Source: an uncultured Vogesella sp.
GTDB lineage: Bacteria > Pseudomonadota > Gammaproteobacteria > Burkholderiales > Chromobacteriaceae
Length of the DNA: 19,050 nucleotides
Direction of reading: 5' to 3'
NCBI GenBank assembly: GCA_946479405.1
Contig: CAMLGD010000044.1
Location: 1-19,050, forward strand
Part shown: one piece after another, positions 1 to 16,756 of the stretch
How positions within the stretch are numbered: position 1 is the first letter of the stretch
Layout of the letters: every line of letters starts with the position of its first letter
Made by a program: the position numbers and the translations under genes
Notes under the pieces: generated by a model
Databases searched by the model: none
Told to the model about the DNA's origin: nothing
Seen by the model: only the letters and a program-made list of their open reading frames with translations

Positions 1-688
1 CGATCACGTACAGGTAGCGGCCGGAGCTGGACAGGCGCGAGATGTGCACCGCGTAACCGGTCTTGACGATGTTGATGATCTGCTTGCTGTCGCCATCGAT
101 CAGCGCCACTTCGCCGCTGTCACGCAGCGTTACCGAGAACAGGTTGTCCAGGTTGTAGTTGTTCATCTTGCGCGTCGGGCGCTTGTCCACCGGGATCAGC
201 ACCTTGCGCGAGTTTTCGATGTCGGCCAGCGAGTATTCCGGTGGCGTCGGCGGCTCTTGCTGGATGTAGCGCGCCATCAGGTCCACGTCCTGCTCGCTCA
301 TCTCGCCCGAGGTCTGCCAGTTGGGCATACCGGCCGGGCTGCCGTAGGCGATGAAGATCTTCAGGTAATCGGTACCCTTGCCCAGGGTGATGTCCGGCGT
401 CAGCGGCTTGCCGGTGGCACCCTTGCGCAGCACGCCATGACAGCCGGCGCAGCGCTCGAAATAGATCTGCTTGGCACGGGCGAACTCCGCCTTGGTCATC
501 GGCGGCGCTTTGGGGTTGATGTTCTGGTGCATCTCCTCGCCGGCCAGCGGCGAGCCGCCGGCCTGATAGGCAACTTCCGGCTGGGTAACCGGTTTGTTTG
601 CAGCGTCGGCCCAAGCCAACGATGCGGCCAACGGCAGACTTGCCAGCAACACGCCCTGTGCGAGCGCGCTCATCCTCGGGAATTTCAT
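1..688 (-). CDS. nirS: Cytochrome cd1 nitrite reductase NirS (5' part, runs off the left edge)
   Basis: Periplasmic NirS reduces nitrite to nitric oxide in denitrification, using heme c to pass electrons to the heme d1 site. The frame stays open from the ATG at 688 to the window edge (229 codons). A signal peptide covers about residues 1-28 (MKFPRMSALAQG start, hydrophobic core, cleavage near AWA-DA). The heme-c motif CAGCH is at residues 80-84. After it come the NirS-typical segments TPDITLGKGTDYLKIF and YIQQEPPTPPEYS, then the start of the d1 propeller (IPVDKRPTRKMNNYNLDNLF). GGAGAA lies 5 bases before the ATG and supports this start. A perfect FNR-type box lies 68-81 bases upstream, so nirS has its own promoter even though it follows norD and the DUF3079 gene on the same strand. 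The heme d1 propeller and the gene end lie outside the window. Family assignment is secure. Confidence 0.97.
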   Translation of the reverse strand, partial: MKFPRMSALAQGVLLASLPLAASLAWADAANKPVTQPEVAYQAGGSPLAGEEMHQNINPKAPPMTKAEFARAKQIYFERCAGCHGVLRKGATGKPLTPDITLGKGTDYLKIFIAYGSPAGMPNWQTSGEMSEQDVDLMARYIQQEPPTPPEYSLADIENSRKVLIPVDKRPTRKMNNYNLDNLFSVTLRDSGEVALIDGDSKQIINIVKTGYAVHISRLSSSGRYLYVI

Positions 689-998: not shown

Positions 999-1046
999 GC
1001 CAAGGTTGGCCGCATGCCTTGTGCCGCGGATGCGGCCAACCTTGGC
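999..1046. repeat. Inverted pair of the AAGGTTGGCCGC repeat forming a 17-bp hairpin
   Basis: Two exact copies of the 12-mer face each other: plus strand at 1002-1013 and minus strand at 1032-1043. With their flanks they make a perfect 17-bp stem (999-1015 with 1030-1046) around a 14-base loop. The element lies between norD, which ends at 1161, and the DUF3079 start at 978. There is no T-run after the stem in the direction of transcription, so intrinsic termination is doubtful; attenuation or an unrelated role is possible. The rest of the gap (1047-1160) shows only GC-rich sequence with a weak GGGCG/CGCCC dyad. Confidence 0.85.
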
Positions 1047-1160
1047 GCCATCACGCGCCAGGTGGTACATCCGCAGCGTGGACGATGTTTGCAGTCGCCG
1101 CTTCCGCCCGGCGAAAGGGACAAGGGCGTGGCGCCCCCCGCCCTACACCGGACTCCAGCG

Positions 1161-2978
1161 TCAGGCGGTCAGCCCCGCATACAGGCTGGTCAACACCTGC
1201 GGCAGCCGCCGCGCATCGTGCACCACGGTGTAACCGCGGCGGCCGAACAGGTGCGGCAGGTAATCGCCGGCTTCCTTGTCCACCGTGACGCAGAACGGGA
1301 TCAGCCCGGCCTGCTTGGCTTCCAGCACCGCGCGGCGGGTGTCTTCCACGCCGTAGCGGCCTTCGTAGTGATCGAGGTCGTTGGGCTTGCCGTCGGACAC
1401 GATCAGCAACAGCCGGCGCTGCGCCGGCTGTTCCAGCAGGATGCGCGTGGACTGGCGGATGGCGGCGCCCATGCGCGTGTAGTAGCCGGGGCGGATCGCC
1501 AGGATGCGGCCGCGCGCGGCGTCGTCGTAGCGCTCGGCGAAATCCTTCAGCAGCAGGTAGCGCACCTCGCTGCGGCGGATGCTGGAAAAACCGTACAGAC
1601 CAAAACTGTCGCCGCAGGCGGCCAGCGCCTCGGCAAACAGCAGCAGGCTGTCGCGGATGACGTGGATCACCTGCCCGGCCTCGCCCAGCCAGCTTTCGGT
1701 GGATAGCGACAGGTCGGCCAGCAGCAGGCAGGCCATGCTGCGCCCGCCCGGCGGCCACGCCTGGTACAGGGCGGGTTCGGCCACGGCCACGCCGCTCTTC
1801 TGCTCGGCCAGGAAGCGGATCAGCCGGTCGAGGTCGATGTCCGGACCGCTGGCTTCGCCGCTCTTGCGCGTGCGTTCCGGCGACAGCGCCTGGAACTGGC
1901 GGCGCAGGCGCCGCGCCAGCGGCTGCAGGTTTTCCGGCAGGCCGGCCGGCTGGGCATCACGCGGCAGCATCGGTTGCAGCCGGCAGTGATCGGCCACCAG
2001 CCGCTGCCGCTTCCAGTCCCATTCCGGCAGCAGGATGCCGCCACCGAGCGGGGTGTCGTCGTAGGCCGCGGCCGGCAGGTCGAGGTCGAACTTGAGGCGG
2101 CTGGAGCGAGTGTGGCCGTCTCGCGCCACGGTGAGACGGTCCATGTCTTCGGCAGCAGCGCCGTCGTCGGATTCGTCGTCGTCCTGGTGGCGGTTCACCT
2201 TCACGTAGTCGTCCCAGGTGAAGATGCTTTCGGCGCGGAACTGCAGCAGCATGCCGCTCTTGCGCTCGTCCGGCGTTTCGCGGCGCGCACGGTAGCGGCG
2301 GCGCTGCTTGCCGTCACGGCTGTCGCCGTGCGAGCTGTCCGGGGTCTGGCCATCGTCGGCGTTGGCCGCTACGGCGGTAGGCGGTGCCGGGTGCAGCCAC
2401 AGCAGCACCGGCTGCGGCGGGGTGCGCGCTGCCGGCAGGCTGATATCGGCCTCCGGCTGTTGCAATGCCAGGCGGATGGCGGCTTCCTGCGCGGCGGCGG
2501 CCGGCTCGCGCGGGCTGTCGCGCAGCGGCAGCAGCGCCGCCACCAGCCGCTGGTACAGCGTGGCGAGGCCCGGCATGGCAGCCAGGGCGGCGGCAGTGGC
2601 GCGGCGGTTGCGCGTCAGCCAGTCGCCGGCCGGTAGCGGCTGCGCCGCCAGCGCCATCAGCCAGAAGTACAAGTCGCGGTTGCGCGCGGCATCCGGGTAC
2701 AGGTCGATTTTTTCCGGCAGGTACAGCGACTGGCCGTCGCGCCAGGCCAGCTCCACCTGGGTGTTGCTGCCGGCGATGCGTTCCAGCAGCCGGCGGCGCG
2801 CACCGTGGGCAGTGCCGACCGCGCTCTTGATGGTGAGCGCCGGCTCGCCGCCCATGGCGCGAAAGAACAGCGGCGCCTGTTTTTCGATATCGACCAGCGC
2901 GACGGCGGCCTGCGGGTAGCCGCGATAAGCGGCGCGGCGGATGAGTTTGTCCCACCAGCCGCCGACGATGTCTTCCAT
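1161..2978 (-). CDS. norD: NorD, von Willebrand factor A protein for NO reductase activation
   Basis: NorD works with the AAA+ protein NorQ to mature or activate cytoplasmic-membrane NO reductase, probably during insertion of the non-heme iron; this is family knowledge. The 605-residue product has an alpha-helical N-terminal half, an acidic and basic low-complexity stretch (about 205-280), and a C-terminal VWA domain from about 412. The MIDAS motif DLSLS is at 422-426, the MIDAS threonine region TRMGAA starts at 501, and SDGKPND is at 528-534. All metal-ion adhesion residues are therefore present. The length fits NorD proteins. The ATG at 2978 follows a purine-rich AAGGGAAG about 8 bases upstream and lies 15 bases after the preceding stop, so norQ, the membrane gene and norD are surely one operon. 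Confidence 0.95.
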   Translation of the reverse strand: MEDIVGGWWDKLIRRAAYRGYPQAAVALVDIEKQAPLFFRAMGGEPALTIKSAVGTAHGARRRLLERIAGSNTQVELAWRDGQSLYLPEKIDLYPDAARNRDLYFWLMALAAQPLPAGDWLTRNRRATAAALAAMPGLATLYQRLVAALLPLRDSPREPAAAAQEAAIRLALQQPEADISLPAARTPPQPVLLWLHPAPPTAVAANADDGQTPDSSHGDSRDGKQRRRYRARRETPDERKSGMLLQFRAESIFTWDDYVKVNRHQDDDESDDGAAAEDMDRLTVARDGHTRSSRLKFDLDLPAAAYDDTPLGGGILLPEWDWKRQRLVADHCRLQPMLPRDAQPAGLPENLQPLARRLRRQFQALSPERTRKSGEASGPDIDLDRLIRFLAEQKSGVAVAEPALYQAWPPGGRSMACLLLADLSLSTESWLGEAGQVIHVIRDSLLLFAEALAACGDSFGLYGFSSIRRSEVRYLLLKDFAERYDDAARGRILAIRPGYYTRMGAAIRQSTRILLEQPAQRRLLLIVSDGKPNDLDHYEGRYGVEDTRRAVLEAKQAGLIPFCVTVDKEAGDYLPHLFGRRGYTVVHDARRLPQVLTSLYAGLTA

Positions 2979-2993
2979 ATTGGCGCTTCCCTT

Positions 2994-3371
2994 CTAGCGT
3001 GGCCGCCACAGGCCGGGCAGCGGGTAGCGGCACGGCAAACCGGCCATGGCCCGTGCCAGCGCATAGGCGCCGGACAGCACCAGGGCGGCATGAATCAGGG
3101 TGAAGTACAGGATCAGCACCACCCAGGTGGTGCTGTTGCCAAAGCCGCCCAACAGCGGCACGGCGGCGGTGACCAGCAGCAGCAACACGCCGCTCCACAA
3201 GGCGGCGGTAAATGCCTGCTGCAGATGCTGCTGTAAGGCCGGGCTGGCCTGCGGCTGCCAGCGGCGGCGGCAGCGCCACAGCAGCAGAAAACCGATGCCC
3301 GGCGCCAGCAGCAGGTTGAGCAGGTAGAGCGCGTGGGCGCAGATGGCGCGCTGGCGGTCGGCCTCGTCCAT
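2994..3371 (-). CDS. Small membrane protein between norQ and norD, unknown function
   Basis: This 125-residue protein starts at the ATG at 3371, two bases after the norQ stop (TGACATG), so translation is coupled. It has three hydrophobic segments: about residues 15-32 (ALYLLNLLLAPGIGFLLLW), 53-76 and 82-108. A basic loop (RCRRRW) follows the first segment and the C-terminus reads GLPCRYPLPGLWRPR. The layout (an early HxLxLLN segment, basic loop, paired helices and a final YPLP) recalls DUF4870/Tic20-like small membrane proteins, but I cannot confirm this. It carries no heme or metal motif. Its place in an otherwise standard norQ-norD pair suggests a role in NO reductase assembly or membrane docking of NorQD; this is inference from position only. 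Confidence 0.8.
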   Translation of the reverse strand: MDEADRQRAICAHALYLLNLLLAPGIGFLLLWRCRRRWQPQASPALQQHLQQAFTAALWSGVLLLLVTAAVPLLGGFGNSTTWVVLILYFTLIHAALVLSGAYALARAMAGLPCRYPLPGLWRPR

Positions 3372-3372
3372 G

Positions 3373-4182
3373 TCAGTGGCCAAACTGGGTGTCCACCACC
3401 GCCAGCAGTGCGGCAATGGTGTCCGCCTCGTCCGACAGCGGCTCCACCAGCGCCACGCGGCAGGCGCTGCGCGGGTCCATGCCGCTGGCGATCAGCTTGG
3501 CGGCGTACACCAGCAAACGGGTGCTGACGGCTTCGTCCAGGTCGTAACCGGTGAGGCGGCGGATCTGGCCGGCCAGTGCCACCAGCCGCGTGGCCAGTGC
3601 CTCGTCGGCGCCGCCTTCGTGGCGCAGCACCGCCATTTCCACCTCGACCGAGGGAAAGTCGAAACTCAGCGCCACGAAGCGTTGGCGGGTGGATGGTTTC
3701 AGCGTCTTCAGTACATGCTGGTAGCCCGGGTTGTACGACACCACCAGCATGAAGCCGGGCGGTGCGGCCAACTCTTCGCCGGTGCGCTCGATCGGCAGGA
3801 TGCGGCGGTCGTCGGTGAGCGGGTGCAGCACCACGGTGGTGTCCTTGCGCGCTTCCACCACTTCGTCCAGGTAGCAGATACCGCCTTCGCGCACCGCACG
3901 GGTCAGCGGGCCATCGCACCAGCTGGTATCGCCGCCGGCGATCAGGTGACGGCCGACCAGGTCGGCGGCGGACAGGTCGTCATGGCAGGACACGGTGAAC
4001 AGCGGCAGCCCCAGGCGCGCCGCCATGTGGGCAACGAAGCGGGTCTTGCCGCAGCCGGTGGGGCCCTTGATCAGCACCGGCAGTTGCCGGCGCCAGGCGC
4101 TTTCAAACACCTGGCACTCGTCGGCCACCGGCTGGTAGTAAGGAACGTTGGCCGCAATGGCGGCGTGGACGGGGGCATTCAT
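3373..4182 (-). CDS. norQ: NorQ, AAA+ ATPase for NO reductase activation (CbbQ/NirQ/NorQ family)
   Basis: NorQ is a cytoplasmic MoxR-type AAA+ ATPase that acts with NorD to activate NO reductase. The 269-residue product has Walker A GPTGCGKT at 40-47 and Walker B GICYLDE at 101-107. Further family signatures are SCHDDLSAADLVGRHL (65-80), PLTDDRRILPIERTGEE and SYNPGYQ (149-155), which are shared by CbbQ, NirQ and NorQ. The length is normal for the family. The ATG at 4182 is chosen over upstream starts because AGGAGC precedes it by about 7 bases and the reading frame upstream is not protein-like. It begins 11 bases after the norF-like stop and ends 2 bases before the next ATG, so it belongs to a tight norF-Q-membrane-D operon. 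Confidence 0.95.
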   Translation of the reverse strand: MNAPVHAAIAANVPYYQPVADECQVFESAWRRQLPVLIKGPTGCGKTRFVAHMAARLGLPLFTVSCHDDLSAADLVGRHLIAGGDTSWCDGPLTRAVREGGICYLDEVVEARKDTTVVLHPLTDDRRILPIERTGEELAAPPGFMLVVSYNPGYQHVLKTLKPSTRQRFVALSFDFPSVEVEMAVLRHEGGADEALATRLVALAGQIRRLTGYDLDEAVSTRLLVYAAKLIASGMDPRSACRVALVEPLSDEADTIAALLAVVDTQFGH

Positions 4183-4192
4183 CTGGGGGCTC

Positions 4193-4453
4193 CTACAGGA
4201 AACTGGTGAGCAGGCCGCCGCAGACCAGCAGCAGCCAGCCATGCACGCAGCTGCGCAGCCATAGCGGCGCATGGCGCAGCGCCATGAACTCTTCGGCCAC
4301 CGCCACGCCCTTGAGCCAGGCACCGGCGAGCGCCAGCAGCGCCACGGCATGGCCGCCGGCGCGCCAATCGGCCAGCAAGGCCAGCAACAGGGTAAGGACG
4401 GAAAGCCATAGCCAAACCAGCCACAGCCCGCGGTGGGAAACGGGGGAAGTCAT
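4193..4453 (-). CDS. norF: NorF-like small membrane protein (cytochrome oxidase subunit IV-like)
   Basis: This 86-residue protein begins MTSPVSHRGLWLVWLWLSVL and has three hydrophobic stretches: about 11-28, 35-52 and 66-84. The segment LKGVAVAEEFMALRHAP (47-63) fits the pattern of the bacterial cytochrome c oxidase subunit IV family that includes NorF. NorE and NorF are accessory proteins of the NO reductase cluster in Paracoccus and are needed for full activity. Here norF lies directly before norQ (11-base gap) but is parted from norE by the glutathione transferase gene. The ATG at 4453 was taken because the frame upstream runs through a terminator and a repeat; the ribosome site is poor (GCGGCATGCTTCGGCC region). 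Small size makes the family call less certain than for its neighbours. Confidence 0.75.
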   Translation of the reverse strand: MTSPVSHRGLWLVWLWLSVLTLLLALLADWRAGGHAVALLALAGAWLKGVAVAEEFMALRHAPLWLRSCVHGWLLLVCGGLLTSFL

Positions 4454-4478
4454 GGCCGAAGCATGCCGCAGCAGGGCG

Positions 4479-4490
4479 GCGGCCAACCTT
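4479..4490 (-). repeat. Single exact copy of the AAGGTTGGCCGC repeat
   Basis: An exact copy, reading AAGGTTGGCCGC on the minus strand, lies in the 94-base gap between the glutathione transferase and norF. It sits just downstream of the transferase terminator and 26 bases before the norF start. No second arm is present. Confidence 0.8.
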
Positions 4491-4500
4491 GACGACAGGC

Positions 4501-4526
4501 AAGAAAACGCCCGCGTGCAGCGGGCG
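4501..4526 (-). terminator. Intrinsic terminator after the glutathione transferase gene
   Basis: On the minus strand the stem CGCCCGC-TGCAC-GCGGGCG (7 bp, positions 4526-4508) is followed by TTTTCTT (4507-4501). It lies 22 bases past the transferase stop at 4548. It should separate that gene from the norF-norQ-norD transcript. Confidence 0.8.
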
Positions 4527-4547
4527 TGGCAGGGAGAGCGCTTACGC

Positions 4548-5171
4548 TCAGGCGGCTTGCAGCTGACGCCAGGCCTGCAGCGACGGGCGCTGCCACTGCT
4601 GCGCGGCATAGTCGGCCAAGTGCTGCGGCAGCGGATCGCCGGCACGCAGCAGGCGCTGCAGCATCAGCGCCAGGTCGGCATCGGCGATGCACCAGTCGCC
4701 GAACAGGTTAGCGCCGCCATGCGCCAGCAGGCCGGACGCCACGGCCACCAGCTTGGCCGCGGCCTGCTGTCCGGCGGCATCCAGCGGCGCGATGGCCGGG
4801 CGGCGGAATACCACTTCGGTGGTGCGCTGTTCACGCAGCGGCACGAGATCGCTGCGCAGCCAGGCCTGCACTTGCCGCGCCAGCGCGCGTTGCTGCGGCG
4901 CCGCCGGATACACCGCCGGCGCCGGGTGGCTGTCTTCCAGGTATTCGCTGATGGCGGACGATTCGGCGAGGCGGAAATCACCCGCCTGCAGCAGCGGCAC
5001 CCGCTGCATGCCGCACAGCGCCGCGTAATCCGGCTGGCGGTTGGCGCCGCTTTCCAGATCGACGGTACGCAGTTCGAACGGCAAACCTTTTTCGGTGAGG
5101 GTGACGAACACCGACATGGCATAGGGGCTCAGGTACTGGCTGTCGACATACAACTGATATGGCTGGGACAT
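4548..5171 (-). CDS. yfcF: YfcF-type glutathione S-transferase
   Basis: The 207-residue protein matches the E. coli YfcF kind of glutathione transferase as I remember it: QYLSPYAMSVFVTLTEKGLPFE at the N-terminus, RVPLLQ, ESSAISEYLED, then QVQAWLRSDLVPLREQRTTEVVF and a LFGDWCIADADLAL motif. Residues 1-85 form the thioredoxin-like domain that binds glutathione (ESSAIxEYLE is the gamma-glutamyl-binding motif) and the rest the helical C-terminal domain. YfcF has glutathione-dependent peroxidase and transferase activity. The ATG at 5171 has AAAGGAA upstream; an earlier in-frame start at 5207 lacks such a site. The gene sits between norE and norF and has its own terminator, so it looks like an insertion into the nor accessory genes. 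It may help against nitrosative or oxidative damage; that is inference. Confidence 0.9.
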   Translation of the reverse strand: MSQPYQLYVDSQYLSPYAMSVFVTLTEKGLPFELRTVDLESGANRQPDYAALCGMQRVPLLQAGDFRLAESSAISEYLEDSHPAPAVYPAAPQQRALARQVQAWLRSDLVPLREQRTTEVVFRRPAIAPLDAAGQQAAAKLVAVASGLLAHGGANLFGDWCIADADLALMLQRLLRAGDPLPQHLADYAAQQWQRPSLQAWRQLQAA

Positions 5172-5292
5172 GGTGTTCCTTTCGGATGGGTGGGAAGGCA
5201 AACACATTGGCCACCACTCTACCCTGTCCAGCCGCCCGTCACAGCCAGGCTATCCAGAATGCATTGTTCTGCCGTTGGCACAGCAGCGGCAT

Positions 5293-5877
5293 TCAGTGCG
5301 CCACGTACACCAGCGCAAACAGCACCAGCCACACCAGATCCACCATATGCCAGTAGGCGGCAGCGGTTTCCACGCCGACATGGTTGGCCGCATCGTAAGC
5401 CCCTTGCCGCGCACGGAGATACACCGCGGCGATGATCACCATGCCCAGCACCACGTGCAGGTAGTGAAAGCCGGTCAGCGCCAGGTAGAACATCCAGAAA
5501 TCGTTGCTGGACAGGGTGATGCCGGCGCCGAACTTGGCGGCGAACTCCATGCTCTTGAGCAGCAGAAAGCCGCCGCCACAGGCCAGCGACGCCAGCAGCC
5601 AGCGCTGGCCATGCCGCGCGCGGCCGGCGGCAAAACTGCGCACCGCCGCCGCCACCGCCGCACTGCCGGCAATCAGCAGCAGGGTGTTGATGATCGCCGG
5701 CAGCAATGACAGCTGCTGCTGCCCGGCGGCGAACAGTGCCGGCTGGCGCGCGCGCACCACGCCGTAGATGGCGAAGAACAGGCCGAATACCGCCAGCTCC
5801 GCCAGGATGAAAAACCACATCGCCAGATCACCCGGCACCGTACGCGGTGCGCTGGCGGCCAACCTTGTCGTCTGCAT
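5293..5877 (-). CDS. norE: NorE-like protein (cytochrome c oxidase subunit III family)
   Basis: The 194-residue integral membrane protein has the subunit III fold pattern with about five helices: GDLAMWFFILAELAVFGLFF near the N-terminus, a helix around 65-85, and the family motifs LLLKSMEFAAKF, FYLALTGFHYLHVVLGM and VGVETAAAYWHMVDLVWLVLF at the C-terminus. NorE is an accessory of the NO reductase cluster, not a catalytic subunit. The ATG at 5877 follows CGGAG 8-9 bases upstream; two earlier in-frame starts give an unlikely polar extension and were rejected. The codons for residues 5-8 (R-L-A-A) coincide with an exact copy of the AAGGTTGGCCGC repeat. A near copy (11 of 12) also lies inside the gene at 5379-5390. 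Upstream lies the norB terminator, so norE probably needs its own promoter. Confidence 0.88.
   Translation of the reverse strand: MQTTRLAASAPRTVPGDLAMWFFILAELAVFGLFFAIYGVVRARQPALFAAGQQQLSLLPAIINTLLLIAGSAAVAAAVRSFAAGRARHGQRWLLASLACGGGFLLLKSMEFAAKFGAGITLSSNDFWMFYLALTGFHYLHVVLGMVIIAAVYLRARQGAYDAANHVGVETAAAYWHMVDLVWLVLFALVYVAH
5855..5866 (-). repeat. Exact copy of the AAGGTTGGCCGC repeat inside the start of norE
   Basis: The copy reads AAGGTTGGCCGC in the direction of the gene and spans codons 4-8 of norE, encoding part of T-R-L-A-A. This is the only exact copy that lies within a coding region in the window. Confidence 0.75.
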
Positions 5878-5953
5878 TGTCGTGCTCCGGGCCGGCTCCG
5901 GGGCTGGAGGCGGCCAGTAAAAATCCATTCGGGGCGAACCGGACAGGAAGCCC

Positions 5954-5982
5954 GTTACCGCCACATGGAAGCGGCAAGTCAA
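5954..5982 (-). promoter_or_regulatory. Possible sigma-70 promoter for norE
   Basis: On the minus strand TTGACT (5982-5977, five of six to the -35 consensus) is followed after 17 bases by GGTAAC (5959-5954, three of six to the -10 consensus). It lies between the norB terminator and the norE start, where a promoter is needed, but the -10 is poor and it remains a weak call. Confidence 0.3.
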
Positions 5983-6037
5983 TCATCGTCCGCGCAGCAG
6001 GCACTGCCATCGTGCTCGGCACAGCCGCGGTGCGCGT

Positions 6038-6065
6038 AAAAAAGGCGCCCCCTTGCAGGGGCGCC
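6038..6065 (-). terminator. Intrinsic terminator of norCB
   Basis: On the minus strand the 8-bp stem GGCGCCCC / GGGGCGCC (6065-6058 with 6051-6044) is followed by six T (6043-6038). It lies 27 bases after the norB stop and should end most norCB transcripts before norE. Confidence 0.9.
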
Positions 6066-6092
6066 AACCGTTACACACACACATACACGGAA

Positions 6093-7992
<1,900 letters not shown>

Positions 7993-8032
7993 CGCAACCT
8001 CCTAGTCATCTGCTCCGGCATCCCGGCATTTC

Positions 8033-8057
8033 AGCCCGAAATGTACGTTTTCGGGCT
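8033..8057. promoter_or_regulatory. Perfect dyad over the predicted norC -10 region
   Basis: AGCCCGAAA at 8033-8041 and its exact complement TTTCGGGCT at 8049-8057 form a 9-bp inverted repeat with a 7-base spacer. The predicted norC -10 element TACATT (8045-8040 on the minus strand) lies within it, with the FNR-type box just upstream. It could be a repressor operator or a chance hairpin. It does not resemble the NsrR consensus I know. Confidence 0.5.
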
Positions 8058-8068
8058 TCCCGATAGCA

Positions 8069-8082
8069 TTGACCGCGATCAA
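8069..8082. promoter_or_regulatory. FNR/DNR-type box shared by norC and nirE
   Basis: TTGACCGCGATCAA matches TTGAT-N4-ATCAA at nine of ten fixed positions. From its centre (8075.5) a -10-like hexamer lies 33 bases away on each side: TACATT toward norC (8045-8040) and TACACT toward nirE (8106-8111), each four of six to TATAAT. This is class II activator geometry in both directions. One site may therefore control both genes. Confidence 0.88.
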
Positions 8083-8140
8083 CGATTTCCAGAGCCTGCC
8101 CTTCCTACACTGGCGTCATTCCATCGTTGCGGAGAACCGC

Positions 8141-8935
8141 ATGAACCCCGCCCTGCCCTTTCCCCATCCCGCCCCGCTGCACGGCGGCCAGGTCAGCCTG
8201 GTCGGTGCCGGCCCCGGCGATCCGGACCTGCTCACCCTCAAGGCGCTGCGCCGCCTGGCCGAGGCCGACGTGGTGCTGTACGACCTGCTGGTGGCCGAAG
8301 AAATACTGGCGCTGGTCAACAAGCGCGCGCGGCTGATCTGTGTCGGCAAGCGCGCCAGCCGCCACACCCTGCCGCAGCATGAGATCAACCAGCTGCTGCT
8401 AACCGAGGCGCAGGCAGGCCAGCGCGTGGTGCGGCTGAAAGGCGGCGACCCACTGCTGTTCGGCCGCGGCGGCGAGGAGTTGGCGGCGCTATTGGCAGCC
8501 GGCATCGAGGTAGAAGTGGTACCCGGCATCACCGCCGCGGTGGGTGCAGCAGCCGCCGCCGGCATCCCGCTGACCCATCGCGACTGTGCGCAAGGCGTCA
8601 GCCTGGTCACCGGCCATCGCCGCGACGGCGCCAGCGGGCTGGACTGGGCGGCACACAGCGGCCGCGAACAGACCGTGGTGGTGTACATGGGGCTGGGTGA
8701 GGCCGCCGCCATCGCCAACGAGCTACAGGCACATGGCCGCAGTGGCGATACGCCGGTGGCAGTGATCGAACAGGCCACCACGCCACGGCAACGGGTACTG
8801 CGCTGCACCCTCGGCACACTGGCCGACTGCGTGGCACAGGAAGGCCCGCAACCGCCGGCACTGCTGGTGATCGGAGAAGTGGTGGCGCTGGCCAGCCGCT
8901 GGCAGCGACAAACCGCGGAGTGCAGCGCCGACTGA
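8141..8935 (+). CDS. nirE: Uroporphyrinogen-III C-methyltransferase NirE/CobA type
   Basis: This SAM-dependent enzyme methylates uroporphyrinogen III at C2 and C7 to precorrin-2, the branch point to heme d1, siroheme and cobalamin. The 264-residue protein shows the family motifs: VGAGPGDPDLLT (21-32, SAM site), VVRLKGGDPLLFGRGGEE (96-113), VVPGITAAVGAAA (127-139), PLTHR (143-147) and VTGH (156-159). It lacks the CysG dehydrogenase/ferrochelatase domain. The ATG at 8141 has GGAGAA upstream; the earlier in-frame start at 8069 lies inside the FNR box and was rejected. Shared FNR control with norC and proximity to nirS favour a dedicated heme d1 role (NirE), although sequence alone does not separate NirE from CobA. 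It is the only plus-strand gene here and ends at a hairpin facing nnrS. Confidence 0.93.
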   Translation: MNPALPFPHPAPLHGGQVSLVGAGPGDPDLLTLKALRRLAEADVVLYDLLVAEEILALVNKRARLICVGKRASRHTLPQHEINQLLLTEAQAGQRVVRLKGGDPLLFGRGGEELAALLAAGIEVEVVPGITAAVGAAAAAGIPLTHRDCAQGVSLVTGHRRDGASGLDWAAHSGREQTVVVYMGLGEAAAIANELQAHGRSGDTPVAVIEQATTPRQRVLRCTLGTLADCVAQEGPQPPALLVIGEVVALASRWQRQTAECSAD

Positions 8936-8959
8936 CAGCGCATTCGCTCTCGACAACGC

Positions 8960-9003
8960 AAAAGGTTGGCCGCAAAGCGATGAACTTTGCGGCCAACCTT
9001 TTT
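8960..9003. terminator. Bidirectional terminator made of two facing AAGGTTGGCCGC copies
   Basis: A perfect 18-bp stem (8960-8977 with 8985-9002) encloses a 7-base loop, CGATGAA. Each arm contains one exact repeat copy (8962-8973 plus, 8989-9000 minus). The stem ends in a run of five T on the plus strand (8999-9003) and in four T on the minus strand. It lies in the convergent gap between nirE (ends 8935) and nnrS (ends 9057), as a shared terminator should. Confidence 0.92.
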
Positions 9004-9056
9004 GCCCTTGCTGCCGCTACCGAGTGTGCCCCATGGCCTTTGGCACCGGCAGCGCC

Positions 9057-10334
9057 TTACTCCACCGGCACCGCCTTGGCCACCGGCACCGCCTTGGCCA
9101 CCGGCTGCGTGCCCAGTCGCCAGCAACGCCAGGCGGCGTGGTAGTGCCAGCCCAGCAGCAACGCCAGCAGCGTACCGGCCAGCGCCGGCAGCAGCCACAG
9201 GCCGGGGGCCAGACACCAGGCCACGCCGCACAGCTGCCACAGGCACACCGCACGCCAGCCCTGCCGAGCTTTTGCCTCTGGCAGCAGCACCTGCAGCGAT
9301 GGCACCTTCTGTTGCGGCTTGACGCCGCGCCGCAGCTGCAGCCACAGCAGGAACGGGATGATGCGGTACAACATGCCCACGCATAGCGTCAGCACCACGC
9401 CCGGCAGCAGCAGCCAGCCCTGCAAGCGGCGCAGCCAGTCACTGTCCTGCCACTGCCCGGCGATGAACGCCAGACACAGCGCCAGCATCAGCCCCAGCGC
9501 CAGCTGCCAGTAACGGGGCAGCCATTCATGCGGGCGGCGGCTGTGTAGCAACGCCTTGCCCCACACCCAGCCACACAGCGGCAACGGCAGCGCAGCCAGC
9601 CACCACCAGCCACCGTCCGGCCACAGCAGTGACAACACCGCGGCCAGCAGCAACAGTCCGCCCCAGCCGGGCGATGCCCAGCGCTGCCACCAGCCGGGCA
9701 AGGCCGGCGTCAGCAGGAACATCGGCAGAATCACCTGCGCCACCGCCACCAGCAGCAGCCATACCCAGCCCTGCGCCGCCAGCCGATGCAGCGGCAGCAA
9801 GCTCAGCAATGGCCAGGACAGGCCCCAGCCGAACACACCCAGTTGTGCCACCCCCAGCCCCAGCGTCAGCAGCAGACACAGCAGCGCCAGGCGCAGGCCA
9901 CGGCTGCTGCTGTCCTGTGCCGGACTCTGCCACAGCAAGTACCACAGCCAGAGCAGCAAGCACATTGCCGCCAGCAGGGCCACGCTGGCCAGCTGCAGCC
10001 AGTGCGGCGACAGGCCGCCGGCAAAGCCCAGCGCCAGCGCGGCGCAGCCCGCCTGCCAGCAGCCCCACAGGCCGTGCTGCCACAGCCCCGGGCGCGGAAA
10101 GGCCAGCGCCGACACCACCGCCAGCAATTGCAGCAGCGCGCCCAGCATCACATTGCCCAGCACCCCCAGCGCCAGCATATGCAGCGGCAGCCACAGCCCG
10201 GGGGACGGATAGCCGCCATCGGCCGTGCCTATCCAGGCGCCGGCCAGCAACAACAGCCAGACCCACGCCGCCATGAAAAAACGCACCGGCAGGGCGAGTG
10301 GCGGTGCGCTGTCATAACTGGGTATCGCCTGCAT
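9057..10334 (-). CDS. nnrS: NnrS family membrane protein
   Basis: NnrS is a polytopic heme- and copper-containing membrane protein linked to nitric oxide stress and to NO-regulated denitrification genes; its exact reaction is unsettled. The 425-residue product has about 12 hydrophobic segments. It begins with an ALPVRFFMAAWVWLLLLAG stretch and then GLWLPLHMLALGVLGNVMLG, typical of the family. The start at 10334 overlaps the stop of the DUF2249 gene (TGATG), so translation is coupled. The C-terminus ends in an imperfect six-residue repeat (PVAKAV PVAKAV PVE) encoded by an 18-bp tandem repeat, which looks like a recent duplication outside the membrane core. It ends opposite nirE at a bidirectional terminator. 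Confidence 0.92.
   Translation of the reverse strand: MQAIPSYDSAPPLALPVRFFMAAWVWLLLLAGAWIGTADGGYPSPGLWLPLHMLALGVLGNVMLGALLQLLAVVSALAFPRPGLWQHGLWGCWQAGCAALALGFAGGLSPHWLQLASVALLAAMCLLLWLWYLLWQSPAQDSSSRGLRLALLCLLLTLGLGVAQLGVFGWGLSWPLLSLLPLHRLAAQGWVWLLLVAVAQVILPMFLLTPALPGWWQRWASPGWGGLLLLAAVLSLLWPDGGWWWLAALPLPLCGWVWGKALLHSRRPHEWLPRYWQLALGLMLALCLAFIAGQWQDSDWLRRLQGWLLLPGVVLTLCVGMLYRIIPFLLWLQLRRGVKPQQKVPSLQVLLPEAKARQGWRAVCLWQLCGVAWCLAPGLWLLPALAGTLLALLLGWHYHAAWRCWRLGTQPVAKAVPVAKAVPVE
9062..9105 (-). repeat. 18-bp tandem repeat, about 2.4 copies, at the 3' end of nnrS
   Basis: The unit CCACCGGCACCGCCTTGG (plus-strand reading) occurs twice in full, at 9062-9079 and 9080-9097, and in part to 9105. As the unit is six codons, copy changes would keep the frame and only vary the NnrS tail. 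Confidence 0.9.
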
Positions 10335-10549
10335 CAGGGAATATCCACGTGGAAGATCACGCCGGACATGTCCGGCAGCATTTCGCTGTCGAAGCGCACG
10401 CCACGGTCGCGCAGCATCGGCAACAGGGGGCCGGGAAAGTGCGGCAGCACAAAGGACAGACGTTGGCCGCTGGCCCCTTCGTCCACCGCATCCAGGATGA
10501 CTTCTATCGGCTCGGGCGGCAGCAGGCCGCGCAGGTCACGCGGGGACAT
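10334..10549 (-). CDS. DUF2249 small protein in the hemerythrin-nnrS operon
   Basis: The 71-residue protein (MSPRDLRGLLPPEPIEVILD... ending VIFHVDIP) fits the DUF2249 family, a TusA-like fold found near hemerythrins, nitrogen-oxide genes and NnrS. The pattern LxPPEPxxxILxAL...G......P.P.PLLPML is visible. TusA's active cysteine is not present, so sulfur transfer is unlikely for this copy. The ATG at 10549 lies inside the hemerythrin gene (14-base overlap) and the stop overlaps the nnrS start by one base, so all three are translated in a chain. Its own function is not known; co-location argues for a role in handling NO or iron. Confidence 0.82.
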   Translation of the reverse strand: MSPRDLRGLLPPEPIEVILDAVDEGASGQRLSFVLPHFPGPLLPMLRDRGVRFDSEMLPDMSGVIFHVDIP

Positions 10550-10967
10550 GGCCCAGCTCCGCCAACAGCACGCTCATATCGCCTACGCGATCACACATCG
10601 GGTACAGGATGTTCTCCTCCTTCAGGTTGTGCTGCTGCATCAGCAGCAACAGGGTATCGGCAGCGCCGGCCAGACCGTCGCCATCCAGCGCCGCGGCGGC
10701 GGCGCGCATCTCGTCCATCAGCACCCGCATTTCGGCGTGTTCGTGGCGCATCACCACGGTAGGCCCCTGGCTCATGCCGCTGGCCTGTTCAAAAGCCGGA
10801 AACAGCACGTTTTCCTCTTCGGCAAAGTGGTGTTCCATCGCCTGGCAGAAGGCCGTGCAGCTGGTCACTACCTGCGGCCAGTCGCCATCGCGCAGTGCAT
10901 TTTCCACGGCCACGAATTGATCGTCACAGGTGCGATGCACCTGGGTAAAACAGCGGGTGAGAGTCAT
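10536..10967 (-). CDS. Hemerythrin-like domain protein
   Basis: The 143-residue protein is an all-helical hemerythrin (HHE) domain. Candidate diiron ligands are H11 (QVHRTCDD), the H-xxx-E of MEHHFAEEENVLFP (about 44-57), H75/H77 in MRHEHAEM, and QQHNLKEENILYP (about 111-123). These correspond to the three H/HxxxE blocks of the family, so the metal site looks complete. Such proteins bind oxygen, NO or iron, and those next to nnrS are usually tied to nitrosative stress. The ATG at 10967 has AGGTG about 10 bases upstream. An FNR-like site lies 60-73 bases upstream. The 3' end overlaps the DUF2249 start. It is too short for a full RIC/YtfE repair protein, which carries an additional N-terminal domain. 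Confidence 0.88.
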   Translation of the reverse strand: MTLTRCFTQVHRTCDDQFVAVENALRDGDWPQVVTSCTAFCQAMEHHFAEEENVLFPAFEQASGMSQGPTVVMRHEHAEMRVLMDEMRAAAAALDGDGLAGAADTLLLLMQQHNLKEENILYPMCDRVGDMSVLLAELGHVPA

Positions 10968-11026
10968 GTCGGCAGCACCTGTGTTGAGCTTGCTTGCATT
11001 GTGCGGCGCGGCGGGTCGCGGCAGAC

Positions 11027-11040
11027 ATGACGCCGGTCAA
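11027..11040 (-). promoter_or_regulatory. Weak FNR-like site before the hemerythrin operon
   Basis: On the minus strand TTGACCGGCGTCAT matches TTGAT-N4-ATCAA at seven of ten fixed positions. A -10-like CACAAT (11003-10998, four of six) is centred 33 bases from the site centre, the same spacing as at nirS, norC and nirE. The shared geometry and the NO-related genes downstream support it; the base match alone would not. Confidence 0.45.
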
Positions 11041-11047
11041 GGGTATT

Positions 11048-12646
11048 TCAGCGCGCCACCGGCGCCGCGATGAAACGGCGGATGCGCGGCGGTGCGGTCT
11101 CCAGATGCAGTTCATGCCGGCGGTCGCGCAGGCTGAGGTCGGCAGCGGTGCCGCGCTCGTTGCGGCGCAAGTATTCCAGCCACGAACTGTCGGTGAACTG
11201 TTCAATATAGACGCCGGGCTCGGCGGTATCGTGAAACAGTTCCCACGACAAGGCGCCGTTGCGCAGCCGCGAGCGCCGGGTTTCGCGCATCAGCTGGGCA
11301 AACTCCTCGGCGCGGCGCGGGTCAATGCGGTACTCCACCATGATCAAGACCGGACCTTCGTCCGGCTCGATGTCGATGGCGACTTCCGGCGCCTGCCACA
11401 GCCGCACCGGCGACTTGTCCTCGTTGTGTATCCCCAGTGTCAGCCGGCGGGTGAGCAGCAAGCCCAGCAAGGCGCAGCCGGCGGCAATCGTCAGCGCTGC
11501 CGGCACGCTGCTGATGCTGGCCACCTGCCCCCACAGCGCAGCACCCAGCGCGCTGGAGCCCATCATGGTCATCTGGTGGATGGACATACCACGCGCGCGC
11601 ACCCAGTCCGGCAGCGCCGCCTGCGCCGACACCGTCAGCGAGTTGGCCACCGAGATCCACGCCATGCCGGCCAGCGGCATCAGCACGGCGGCCATCCATG
11701 GGCTGGGCACATGCGCCACCAGCACGGTAATGGCGGCATGCAGCAGCGTGCCGTAGCGCAACAGGGTGTCGCGCGGCAGGTGCTGGCGCACATACGGCAG
11801 CAGGAACGCCGCCAGCACCGCGCCGGCGCCCATGCTGGCCAGCAGCAGGGTAAAGGTGCCGGCCCCGGCGCCAGGAAAGCGCCGCGCCACCAGCGGCAGC
11901 AACGCCAGCAAGGCGGTGGACAAGGTAAAGAAGGTAAACACCCGCAGCATGATGATGTGCAGCTCCGGCGACTGCCGCACGTACTGCAGCCCGACGCGGA
12001 TGGCGCCGAAGAAGCGCTCGCCCGGTAGCGAGCTGACCTTTTGCTGATGACGCCAGGTCAGCAGCAGCAGGCCAATGGCTACCGACAGCACCGCGTTGAG
12101 CAGAAACACGTAGCCACTGCCGGCCGCGGCGATGATGCCGCCGGCGACAATGGGGCCGATCACCCGCGACAGGTTCATCGCCACCGCATTGAGCACCAGC
12201 GCGCCCGGCAGCTCGACCCGCGGCACCAGGGTGGGAATCAGTGCCGCAAACAGCGGCCAGCGCATGGCCAGGCCGATGCCGTAGGCAAACGTCAGCGTCA
12301 GCAACAGCCCCGGCGTCAGCAGGTCCAGAAAGGTGGTCAGGCTCAGGGTGATGGCCACGGCGGCAACCCAGAACTGGGTGGCAATAAAAAAGCGGCGCCG
12401 ATCGACGATATCCGCCAGCGCCCCGCATGGCACCCCCAGCAGGAACACCGGCAAGGTGGACGCCGCCTGCACCAGCGCCACCAGCACCGGGCTGCTGCTG
12501 AGCGAGGTCATCAGCCAGGCTGCGGCCACGTCATTCATCCACATGCAGATGTTGGCCGTCAGCCAGGTGCCCCACAGCATGCGGAACAGCGGTTGTTTCA
12601 ATGGAATCCAGGCGGGCAACGGCGTGGTGGTAGCGGGGGCGGTCAT
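11048..12646 (-). CDS. MFS_3 family exporter with C-terminal soluble domain
   Basis: The 532-residue protein is a major facilitator of the MFS_3 (EntS-like, PF05977) family, which exports siderophores, drugs or other small molecules. About 12 hydrophobic segments fill residues 15-405. The loop GALADIVDRRRF after the second and third helices matches the MFS signature G-x-L-A-D-(R)-x-x-R-R. The last 110 residues, from about GPVLIMVEYRIDP, form a soluble alpha/beta domain like a dimeric monooxygenase-type (ABM) fold, a standard part of many MFS_3 proteins. The substrate cannot be told. I chose the ATG at 12646. A TTG 21 bases upstream is in frame, but neither has a good ribosome site. A terminator-like hairpin lies just upstream, so how it is expressed is unclear. 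Confidence 0.85.
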   Translation of the reverse strand: MTAPATTTPLPAWIPLKQPLFRMLWGTWLTANICMWMNDVAAAWLMTSLSSSPVLVALVQAASTLPVFLLGVPCGALADIVDRRRFFIATQFWVAAVAITLSLTTFLDLLTPGLLLTLTFAYGIGLAMRWPLFAALIPTLVPRVELPGALVLNAVAMNLSRVIGPIVAGGIIAAAGSGYVFLLNAVLSVAIGLLLLTWRHQQKVSSLPGERFFGAIRVGLQYVRQSPELHIIMLRVFTFFTLSTALLALLPLVARRFPGAGAGTFTLLLASMGAGAVLAAFLLPYVRQHLPRDTLLRYGTLLHAAITVLVAHVPSPWMAAVLMPLAGMAWISVANSLTVSAQAALPDWVRARGMSIHQMTMMGSSALGAALWGQVASISSVPAALTIAAGCALLGLLLTRRLTLGIHNEDKSPVRLWQAPEVAIDIEPDEGPVLIMVEYRIDPRRAEEFAQLMRETRRSRLRNGALSWELFHDTAEPGVYIEQFTDSSWLEYLRRNERGTAADLSLRDRRHELHLETAPPRIRRFIAAPVAR

Positions 12647-12678
12647 GTCGGCAATCAGATGTGGCAACAGCAGGGTGG

Positions 12679-12709
12679 ATAAAGCGATGCGCCCGCCAGC
12701 GCGGGCGCA
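12679..12709 (-). terminator. Probable terminator after the universal stress protein gene
   Basis: On the minus strand the stem TGCGCCCGC-GCTG-GCGGGCGCA (9 bp, 12709-12688) is followed by a broken T tract (TCGCTTTAT). It lies 22 bases after the stop at 12731. The weak T run means termination may be partial, with some read-through into the MFS gene. Confidence 0.6.
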
Positions 12710-12730
12710 GACGGGCAGCAGGTCGGATAC

Positions 12731-13165
12731 TTACTCGTGGCTCACCACGGTCACGGGTACCGGCGACAGGCGAATCACCTCGCTGGTGACCGAGCCCAGC
12801 AGCGCGCGCCCCAGCCCGGAGCGGCCATGCGAGCCCATCACCACCTGGTGAGCGCTCACCTCGCTGGCATAGTGGGCAATGGTACTGGCGGTGTGCCCCA
12901 CCGCGATATGCGGCGTGTAGGGCTGGCCGGCCGCCTCCAGCGCCGCCTTGGCTGGCTGCAATGCGGCCAACCCTTCCTCGCGGTAGTAGTTTTCCAGCTG
13001 CTCGTGACTGACAAACCAGCGCACGTGGCCGGACTCCACCGGCACTTGTACCGTCAGCAGGTGCACCTCCAGCGCACCCACCAGCTCGCGCAGCTGCAAT
13101 ACGTGTTTCACCGCGCGCATGGCGCAGGCCGAACCATCCACCGCCAGCAATATCCGCATGCTCAT
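12731..13165 (-). CDS. Universal stress protein UspA family
   Basis: The 144-residue protein has the Usp fold: MSMRILLAVDGSACAMRAV at the N-terminus (strand 1 with the conserved Asp in AVDGS) and the C-terminal ATP-binding pattern G-x2-G-x9-G-S/T in MGSHGRSGLGRALLGSVTSEVI. It therefore belongs to the ATP-binding class. Such proteins act in the cytoplasm under starvation, oxidative or low-oxygen stress. The ATG at 13165 follows AAGGAA with a 6-base spacer; the earlier GTG at 13180 overlaps the terC stop but lacks a ribosome site. The gene lies 11 bases after terC and is likely cotranscribed with it. Confidence 0.93.
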   Translation of the reverse strand: MSMRILLAVDGSACAMRAVKHVLQLRELVGALEVHLLTVQVPVESGHVRWFVSHEQLENYYREEGLAALQPAKAALEAAGQPYTPHIAVGHTASTIAHYASEVSAHQVVMGSHGRSGLGRALLGSVTSEVIRLSPVPVTVVSHE

Positions 13166-13176
13166 CTTGGTTTCCT

Positions 13177-13920
13177 TCACGATGGTTTGCGCGGGCTGTC
13201 GTCGCCCAGCGCCACTTCATGGATGATCTGCGCCTGCGCGCGGCGCGCCAGCAGGCTGCCTACCAGCACCACGCCCAGCGCCCCGGCAGCGGCGGCAACA
13301 TAGTGCAGGCTGTGCGGCGCGCCGGCCAGCAACGGCTTGACCGCCACGTCGCCCAGCAGCATGTCGCCGGCGATCCAGCCCAGCAGCGCGGCGCCAAAGG
13401 TGATCACCAGCGGAAAACGGTCCATCAACTTGAGTACAAACTGGCTGCCAGAAACGATGATGGGAATGCTGATCAGGATACCGAACACCACCAGTCCCAG
13501 CTCGCCGCGGGCGGCGCCGGCCACGGCAATCACGTTGTCCAGGCTCATCACTGCGTCGGCGACGATGATGGTCTTGATCGCCCCCAGCAGGTGGGTGCTG
13601 CCCTCGATATTGCCGTGCGCGTCGCCTTCTTCCGGCTGCATCAGCTTCACGCCGATCCACAACAGCAGCAGCGCACCCACCACTTTCAGGTACGGCAGCG
13701 CCAGCAGCTGCAAGGCAAAGAAGATCAGCATGATGCGCAGCGCAATGGCGCCGGCCACCCCCCACATGATGCCCTTGCGCCGCAATGCCGGCGTCAGCTT
13801 GCGACAGGCCAGCGCAATCACCACCGCGTTATCGCCGCCCAGCAGAATGTCGATCATCACGATCTGCAGCACGGCGCTCAGAAAGGCCATGCTGAACAGC
13901 TCCATCCCGTACAACTCCAT
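13177..13920 (-). CDS. TerC/YjbE family integral membrane protein
   Basis: The 247-residue protein belongs to the TerC superfamily, YjbE branch, whose members export or handle manganese and other metals. It has about seven hydrophobic helices. Two family motifs carry the acidic residues in the membrane: IDILLGGDNAVVIALA (23-38, D24, D30, N31) and ADAVMSLDNVIAVA (121-134, D122, D128, N129). A hydrophilic loop around 95-112 (QPEEGDAHGN) separates the halves. The ATG at 13920 follows CCGAGGA; the upstream extension to 13989 runs through a repeat and hairpins. Many genes of this branch are preceded by the yybP-ykoY manganese riboswitch, but the 108-base leader here does not show its conserved core. 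A universal stress gene follows at 11 bases. Confidence 0.9.
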   Translation of the reverse strand: MELYGMELFSMAFLSAVLQIVMIDILLGGDNAVVIALACRKLTPALRRKGIMWGVAGAIALRIMLIFFALQLLALPYLKVVGALLLLWIGVKLMQPEEGDAHGNIEGSTHLLGAIKTIIVADAVMSLDNVIAVAGAARGELGLVVFGILISIPIIVSGSQFVLKLMDRFPLVITFGAALLGWIAGDMLLGDVAVKPLLAGAPHSLHYVAAAAGALGVVLVGSLLARRAQAQIIHEVALGDDSPRKPS

Positions 13921-13940
13921 GGTGTGTCCTCGGCGGCGGG

Positions 13941-13956
13941 CCGTGCACAGGCACGG
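13941..13956 (-). other. Short hairpin in the terC leader
   Basis: CCGTGC-ACAG-GCACGG is a perfect 6-bp stem with a 4-base loop about 20 bases before the terC start, just upstream of the ribosome site. It may influence translation, but nothing ties it to a known riboswitch. Confidence 0.35.
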
Positions 13957-13963
13957 CGGTGAC

Positions 13964-13974
13964 AGGTTGGCCGC
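13964..13974 (+). repeat. Eleven-base copy (AGGTTGGCCGC) in the terC leader
   Basis: Eleven of the twelve repeat bases are present; the first A is C. It is followed by TGCGGCC (13979-13985), which pairs with GGCCGCA (13969-13975) to make a 7-bp hairpin, so this may be a decayed inverted pair. Confidence 0.65.
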
Positions 13975-14028
13975 AGCGTGCGGCCGCATTGATGTTTCAT
14001 GTTAGCTGCTGCGCCGGGCAGCAACCGG

Positions 14029-14760
14029 CTAGCGATAACGGTTATACGCTGCCTGCAGATGGCCACGGACCTGCAACTGGTGAATGGCGCGATTGAGCTG
14101 GGCCAGGCTGACGCTGCTGTGCGGCGACAGTGCGCACTGCACCCGTGTCCGGCTGACCAGCAGCCGCGGGTGAAGCGCATGGCGGAACAGACCGTGCTTG
14201 ATCTGGTAATCCAGGAACTGGCTGTTGACCACCGCGTAGTTGATTCGTCCGGCGACCAGTTTTTCCAGATTGGCCTGCGCCTGCGGCGCATCATCACGGA
14301 TGAAATGCGTCCCCAGTGCGGCTTCCAGCTCCGGATAACGGAAGCCGAGCACGGTGCCCACCGGCTGGTCGGCGACAGCGGCCAGCGCCCGGGGGCGCGG
14401 CGCGCGGCGCAGGGCCACCAGCACGTCGGTATGCTCGGCCACCGCCGCGCTCCACTGGAACGGCCCCGGCAGCCAGGCCGGCTGGTAACCGCAGACAATA
14501 TCCGCATCGCCACTGGCCAGCGACACCGGCAGCCGCTTGCGCGGCCGGATCAGAAAGCGCGGCTCACGCCCCAGCCTGGCCGCCAGCAGCTCGCCGATAT
14601 CCTTGTGCCAGCCTTGCAGCAGCTGGCCATCGCGCAGCTCGGCCAGCGGCATTTCGGTGCTGTCGTCCACCACGATGCCAAGCGTGGCAGCGCAGGCCGG
14701 GCCGATACCAGCCAACAGGCCGCCAAGCAGCAACAGCAGGCGCCGGTAAGCGCGTTTCAT
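14029..14760 (-). CDS. Orphan periplasmic solute-binding protein (SBP_bac_3 type)
   Basis: The 243-residue protein has a clear signal peptide (MKRAYRRLLLLLGGLLAG, cleavage near ACA-AT at residue 24). The mature part looks like a family 3 amino-acid-type binding protein: a first lobe with GWHKDIGELLAARLGREP and LASGDADIVCGYQP, a hinge near VADQPVGTVLGFRYPEL, and a second lobe with LVAGRINYAVVNSQFLDY. The pattern ending in QLRGHLQAAYNRYR-like sequence is usual for the family. No permease or ATPase lies nearby, so it may serve a distant transporter or have a sensory role. The ligand is unknown. The ATG at 14760 follows a GGGGGGAT run; the longer frame to 14832 is not protein-like. Confidence 0.8.
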   Translation of the reverse strand: MKRAYRRLLLLLGGLLAGIGPACAATLGIVVDDSTEMPLAELRDGQLLQGWHKDIGELLAARLGREPRFLIRPRKRLPVSLASGDADIVCGYQPAWLPGPFQWSAAVAEHTDVLVALRRAPRPRALAAVADQPVGTVLGFRYPELEAALGTHFIRDDAPQAQANLEKLVAGRINYAVVNSQFLDYQIKHGLFRHALHPRLLVSRTRVQCALSPHSSVSLAQLNRAIHQLQVRGHLQAAYNRYR

Positions 14761-14798
14761 GCATCCCCCCTGCCCTACTGCGTCGCCTTGCCGGCACC

Positions 14799-14809
14799 AG
14801 GTTGGCCGC
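14799..14809 (+). repeat. Eleven-base copy (AGGTTGGCCGC) upstream of the solute-binding gene
   Basis: As at terC, the first A of the 12-mer is replaced by C (CCAGGTTGGCCGC). It lies 39-49 bases before the start codon, between it and the -10-like CATAAT, so it would be in the transcribed leader. Confidence 0.65.
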
Positions 14810-14831
14810 AACTCAGGACGCGCAGTTAACA

Positions 14832-16723: not shown

Positions 16724-16756
16724 GGTGGCGTTCCTCGTAGCGTTGTTATGCGGCCA

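Follow-up and report, generated by a model that had tools for sequence, protein, structure and literature searches.

Why does a single 12-base word, AAGGTTGGCCGC, recur exactly and in inverted pairs within a short stretch of bacterial DNA? The stretch is a 19,050-nucleotide contig segment from an uncultured Vogesella sp. (CAMLGD010000044.1; hereafter the window). Its chorismate synthase (18349-19047, minus strand) is 97% identical to that of Vogesella oryzae and 92% identical to those of V. indigofera, V. margarita and V. alkaliphila, which places the DNA in Vogesella close to V. oryzae. From sequence comparisons we conclude that the word is very probably a DNA uptake sequence, predicted to be read by the minor type IV pilin ComP. 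The initial annotation had suggested that it might be a so far undescribed dialect recognised by a minor pilin akin to ComP, and this proved the best supported reading through the abundance of the word, its dialects and a ComP orthologue.

The window holds six exact copies, at 1002-1013 (plus strand), 1032-1043 (minus), 4479-4490 (minus), 5855-5866 (minus), 8962-8973 (plus) and 8989-9000 (minus), all at the positions first recorded. Four of them form two inverted pairs, 1002/1032 and 8962/8989, the first member of each being the left arm of a hairpin and the second the right arm, and the other two are single. Five of the six had been called intergenic; corrected gene calls put all six between genes. 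Convergent genes (8069-8935, plus, and 9057-10274, minus) flank the 8962/8989 pair alone; the 1002/1032 pair has a minus-strand gene on each side. The decayed copies reported at 12963 and 16750 were found there, whereas three other starts were each one base off those first given: 13963 and 14798 for two 11-base copies and 5380 for a decayed one. Allowing up to two mismatches, AAGGTTGGCCGC matched the window 21 times, compared to a mean of 3.29 and a maximum of 9 in 200 dinucleotide shuffles. The 10-base core GTTGGCCGCA was present in 13 copies against 0.13 expected from an order-3 background, and a matrix derived from V. alkaliphila returned 18 sites above 9 bits (order-3 null mean 0.95, maximum 3 in 20 runs).

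As had been proposed, the word is genome-wide and not confined to this locus. Eight Vogesella-type genomes, namely those of six named Vogesella species, 'Beta proteobacterium L13' and a metagenome-assembled genome (MAG) from a pond, each contained 485-1,050 copies of the exact 12-mer, and the other 22 of 30 genomes contained 0-9; the 12-mer read backwards, used as a control, had 0-3 copies in all 30. Copies of the core GTTGGCCGCA numbered 1,871-2,442 in each of the eight and 2-58 in the other 21 of 29 genomes. In a draw of 150 genomes from the GTDB order at large, it was high only in the two Vogesella included, with 52 copies or fewer in the rest. Across 61 genomes of the GTDB family, GTTGGCCGMR reached at least 868 copies in 22, 294 in one and 53-245 in 38. 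The genome with 294 copies (G206) falls between background and the word-bearing genomes and possibly carries a dialect that is young or in decay.

The unit was defined from a logo of 240 TTGGCCGCA copies in 400 kb of V. alkaliphila. Upstream stand C (63%), A (74%), A (77%), a position of G (62%) or C (29%), and G (92%), and downstream A (41%), giving a Vogesella form of CAA(G/C)GTTGGCCGCA(A). The remaining flanks were near background, so the unit is a word of 13-15 bases and not a longer repeat. A mobile repeat of the repetitive extragenic palindromic (REP) or insertion sequence (IS) type was ruled out on the same grounds.

The stem is shared by sister genera, in which it ends differently. An unbiased 10-mer scan of 20-kb loci, then of larger stretches, returned GTTGGCCGAA, which ends in AA, in Gulbenkiania, Pseudogulbenkiania and strain JH1-16, and recovered the known word GCCGTCTGAA in Neisseria bergeri, the control. 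Whole-genome counts of GTTGGCCGAA were 2,168 in JH1-16, 1,368 in an Aquitalea-labelled MAG, 1,245 in Gulbenkiania mobilis, 1,104 in Pseudogulbenkiania ferrooxidans 2002 (which we take to be the strain also named Lutiella nitroferrum 2002), 893 in P. subflava and 579 in Crenobacter oryzisoli. The eight Vogesella-type genomes each had 8-34 copies, and in the draw from the GTDB order only the Aquitalea-labelled MAG was high, all others having 35 or fewer. A third form ending in AG, GTTGGCCGAG, had 1,590 copies in Crenobacter luteus, and C. oryzisoli was partly mixed, with 165 copies of the AG form beside its 579 of the AA form. One form dominates in each lineage, as with the dialects of the Neisseria DNA uptake sequence (DUS). 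The Aquitalea-labelled MAG (L012 / G012) has the Gulbenkiania-type word and three named Aquitalea genomes are without it, while three Crenobacter genomes (L019, L020 and L032) have the AG form, mostly the AA form and none, respectively; the labels or the dialect history of these genomes therefore need checking.

Copies of the word favour the space between genes. Of the 223 cores found in 400 kb of V. alkaliphila, 109 were wholly intergenic, 112 coding and 2 at gene edges, compared to 87 of 768 intergenic for shuffled words of the same letters; convergent gaps in the gene calls used total 30.5 kb, so some genes remain uncalled and the intergenic share is probably too high, with control words equally affected. 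Corresponding figures were obtained for V. indigofera contig 1 (84/191, control 0.14 of 250), P. ferrooxidans (20/61, control 0.10 of 51) and JH1-16 with the Aquitalea MAG (13/38, control 0 of 14), and for the DUS of N. bergeri as a control system (101/137, control 0.07 of 27). The V. alkaliphila cores split 114/109 between strands at a mean spacing of 1.78 kb. Codon or dicodon bias alone was ruled out by the intergenic excess and the presence on both strands, and the even strand split ruled out a strand-biased word of the Chi or FtsK-orienting polar sequence (KOPS) kind.

Inverted pairs less than 60 bases apart numbered 25 in the V. alkaliphila stretch, 13 in hairpin order and 12 in reverse order, nine of the latter being the perfect 20-base palindrome TGCGGCCAACGTTGGCCGCA with no loop. 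Overlapping dyad DUS pairs are also described for Simonsiella and Kingella in PMC3630211. Of the 24 pairs in V. indigofera contig 1, 20 lay wholly between genes, as did 24 of the 25 in V. alkaliphila and 35 of 36 in the N. bergeri control, and each of the two pairs in the window gives a strong hairpin fold whichever strand is read (z -5.9 to -7.5, -33 to -45 kcal/mol). Hairpins so placed are what a word serving chiefly as a transcription terminator or mRNA 3'-end element, standardised genome-wide and with no uptake role, would produce. We consider that explanation improbable because at least 173 of the 223 V. alkaliphila copies stand outside inverted pairs, 112 are inside genes and the strands are equal. 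In addition, only 6 of 15 hairpin-ordered V. alkaliphila pairs were followed by a T run (at least 4 T among the 8 bases that come after the CC of the right arm), the reverse-order pairs with their loopless palindromes are unlike an ordinary terminator hairpin, and neither window pair was among the 19 sites of a terminator scan of the window. Some intergenic inverted copies may double as transcription terminators in addition to the uptake role that we predict.

Selection for uptake would also be consistent with the way in which the word is retained between species. Words were intact above flank expectation in each of the six comparisons in which words aligned: V. alkaliphila/V. indigofera (12/14 and 7/9, flank identity 0.90 and 0.87), V. 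alkaliphila/V. margarita (10/11, 0.91), V. margarita/V. indigofera (11/13, 0.89), L13/V. aquatica (9/12, 0.90) and the window/V. oryzae (4/6, 0.73). By our arithmetic, an intact 10-mer is expected in roughly 0.04 to 0.4 of cases at those identities. Because species recur among them, the comparisons are not independent of one another; in four others no word fell within an aligned stretch, and contig 1 of V. alkaliphila and contig 1 of V. indigofera are not syntenic. A word this short, abundant, widely spread and conserved above its flanks could instead be the site of another genome-wide DNA-handling protein, at a recombination hot spot or for a chromosome organiser or nucleoid protein. This would surprise us, since the word has no strand bias, unlike Chi-like or KOPS-like words, and its same-stem dialect switching, paired layout and intergenic excess are the pattern of DUS.

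An uptake sequence read by ComP draws its remaining support from the proteins. A comP homologue had been named as something to look for, and profile search combined with a tree identified a ComP orthologue in all eight Vogesella-type genomes and in 15 of the 15 word-bearing genomes examined. Orthologues were also found by this route in Chromobacterium piscinae and C. haemolyticum (C. violaceum was outside the set). In the tree, 34 ComP rows, with Neisseria ComP in the same clade, were separated from 21 other pilins by a branch with support of 100/98. These rows were hand-chosen, comprising 10 Neisseriaceae ComPs and 9 PilE-like sequences of 120, the best match per genome and 11 further pilins, and leaving out L234, L236, L237, L238, L239 and the long-branched L088, L106 and L108; the 34 include Paludibacterium purpuratum, which is without the WPxLP motif. 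An earlier tree with a single Neisseria ComP, that of N. bergeri, had grouped it with another Neisseria pilin at 80/79, and this was resolved by the larger tree. A structural model of V. oryzae ComP, built from 50 hand-chosen sequences, had the solved ComP structures as its best match and is predicted to adopt the ComP fold.

In five Vogesella-type loci, comP adjoins aroB-aroK-pilQ-pilP, continuing to pilO-pilN-pilM where the contig reaches, and a second pilin-like gene precedes comP in four Vogesella-type loci. In other Chromobacteriaceae loci, comP is the last gene of a pilin-like cluster situated no more than a few kb from polA, with the exception of C. luteus, where it is at a contig end. 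Gene names here are our reading of the proteins, and the loci covered do not include those of the Aquitalea MAG and C. piscinae. ComEA was detected in 11 of 11 genomes, and ComEC exceeded the cut-off in 10 of them, all but the N. bergeri control, where it is split into two sub-cut-off pieces. Both were present in all five Vogesella genomes among the 11, and the ComP, ComEC and ComEA frames are open. Genome counts were not near those of the control, copies were not restricted to one locus and competence genes were not lacking; as far as computation can show, therefore, none of the outcomes occurred that the initial annotation had named as fatal to its proposal, the last of which it had coupled to a lack of uptake bias.

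The V. oryzae ComP orthologue is divergent, scoring 115 bits compared to 173-188 in the V. indigofera group, two members of which were in the query alignment. Such divergence in the species nearest to the window is what might be seen if the word were a relic of an ancestral uptake sequence, out of use in Vogesella. We regard this as very improbable given the open competence frames and the copies kept intact above flank prediction in six of six comparisons, even with their overlap in species.

We infer a route in which the ComP orthologue would bind the word on incoming DNA, pilus retraction would draw the word-bearing DNA through PilQ, and ComEA and ComEC would bring it inside, where recombination would follow. 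Preferential uptake of word-bearing DNA, if it occurs as proposed, would cause copies to build up and persist genome-wide.

As described in PMC3630211, Neisseriaceae DUS resemble the word in their length of 10-12 bases and in having about 2,000 copies per genome on both strands and in coding and intergenic DNA. They likewise occur as inverted pairs, with one dialect prevailing in each lineage, alongside ComP and the genes for type IV pilus competence. The initial annotation had called the word unrelated to Neisseria DUS. The Vogesella form agrees with the DUS dialects at 8 of 12 positions (1,618 of 20,000 shuffles, about 8%, did as well), with C at +9 as in king3DUS. The sister form AGGTTGGCCGAA shares 9 of 12 positions with AG-mucDUS and with AG-simDUS, among them the AG at -2/-1 as well as the bases G, G, C, G, A and A at +1, +4, +6, +8, +9 and +10. 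Only 194 of 20,000 shuffles (about 1%) did as well, which is suggestive of common descent while not proving it. The receptors are alike in family (PF16732), WPxLP motif, C-terminal cysteine pair, clade and, as modelled, fold (Neisseria ComP structures 2m3k, 5hz7 and 2nba). The Pasteurellaceae uptake signal sequence (USS), as PMC12616744 describes it, is similar in layout and proposed role but differs in sequence, bacterial family and proposed receptor; its core GCGG is on the reverse strand of the Vogesella form and absent from the AA and AG forms.

Several results weigh against the word being an uptake sequence read by ComP. All DUS dialects have CTG at +6 to +8 in common, according to PMC3630211, whereas all three forms of the word, aligned on AG at -2/-1, have CCG there. 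Since the CTG core was looked for and is absent, we do not file the word as a DUS as defined, though it is predicted to work in a DUS-like manner. The ComPs of Neisseriaceae carry a DD region along with four cysteines in the globular part, while those of Chromobacteriaceae normally have two globular-domain cysteines 8-9 residues apart (three cysteines in the Aquitalea MAG) and a net charge that is at most weakly positive. Both features that the Chromobacteriaceae proteins lack, the DD region and the second disulfide, are reported to be crucial for DUS binding. The globular net charge, a count of residues and not a computed surface, was -4 to +6 in WPxLP proteins outside Neisseria (+5 in V. oryzae) compared to +8 in N. 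bergeri. Three Aquitalea, two Chromobacterium, AP218F and Paludibacterium yongneupense have a WPxLP ComP and no abundant GTTGGCCG word, and no comparable other word appeared in the top-ranked lists of their sampled stretches (40 kb only for AP218F and P. yongneupense). Similarly, top-ranked lists from stretches of Aquitalea, Chromobacterium, Paludibacterium, Chitinibacter, Andreprevotia and C. caeni held no candidate replacement word. The intergenic excess was weak in Gulbenkiania (24/92, 0.26, versus 0.17 of 52 control words) and not apparent in a C. luteus sample of 17 words (5/17, 0.29, versus 0.31 of 13). Depletion from islands was not evident either, with four word-free gaps above 8 kb in the 400 kb of V. 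alkaliphila compared to about 2.5 expected by our estimate, which is about chance. Finally, the ComP search covered 15 word-bearing genomes, with seven further word-bearing genomes of the family outside it.

The 2013 survey (PMC3630211) reports no obvious DUS in Lutiella nitroferrum 2002 or Pseudogulbenkiania NH8B, and dates the rise of DUS to after the divergence from C. violaceum, in which BLAST found no ComP. Among the literature matches listed, there was no account of the word or of a Chromobacteriaceae uptake sequence; for uptake sequences, Vogesella had no match and Pseudogulbenkiania only PMC3630211, whose Table S1D, a list of 10-mers over-represented in these genomes, may already hold GTTGGCCGAA. 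We can envisage an older origin, to which we give an even chance of being correct. The DUS-ComP system would predate Neisseriaceae, and the common ancestor with Chromobacteriaceae would have used a word close to AGGTTGGCCGAA and possessed a simple ComP lacking the DD region. In Neisseriaceae the core would then have changed from CCG to CTG as ComP gained the DD loop and second disulfide, while Vogesella and Crenobacter luteus altered the last two bases and Chromobacterium and Aquitalea lost or replaced the word. If so, the CTG core is not a universal requirement of ComP recognition. The uptake sequences in the literature we found belong to two families, Neisseriaceae and Pasteurellaceae, and Chromobacteriaceae would be a further group. 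Receptors that are orthologous yet lack the loop and disulfide said to be crucial, together with an altered core, would open both the origin of DUS and the basis of ComP-DNA recognition to direct tests, with matched receptor/word pairs at hand across three sister dialects. If the word has an uptake role, Vogesella, Pseudogulbenkiania, Gulbenkiania and Crenobacter should also be naturally competent, and in their genomes the word could help to mark foreign DNA.

Beyond the exact 12-mers, the window carries cores GTTGGCCGCA within coding sequence at 623-632 (minus), 3763-3772 (minus), 5383-5392 (plus), 12962-12971 (minus) and 16163-16172 (minus), together with a C variant, AACGTTGGCCGCA, at 4147-4156 (plus), also coding. 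Cores at 13966-13975 (plus), 14801-14810 (plus) and 16749-16758 (minus) were called intergenic, the start of the neighbouring gene being uncertain in each case. On the minus strand at 1161-7992 are genes that resemble a nitric oxide reductase cluster by our reading of the proteins, with a NorB-like protein at 6093-7526 (only sub-cut-off oxidase family matches), a cytochrome c at 7567-7992 and a MoxR-type ATPase near 3373-4182. It is followed by a uroporphyrinogen methyltransferase at 8069-8935 (plus) and a membrane protein at 9057-10334 (minus), the C-terminus of which has a short repeat, PVAKAVPVAKAVPVE, encoded at 9057-9110 by an 18-base tandem DNA repeat.

Two further words appeared in other genomes. 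The 12-mer AGATCGTAAACA was over-represented in C. haemolyticum (L161-L169, 11 copies) and Crenobacter oryzisoli (L171-L176, 5 copies), with about 0.01 or less expected, and is perhaps part of a mobile element common to both. In Aquaspirillum serpens (L209-L210, L026), the k-mer list was led by periodic words such as GAGACACGAGAC, with 12-13 copies, probably from one tandem array.

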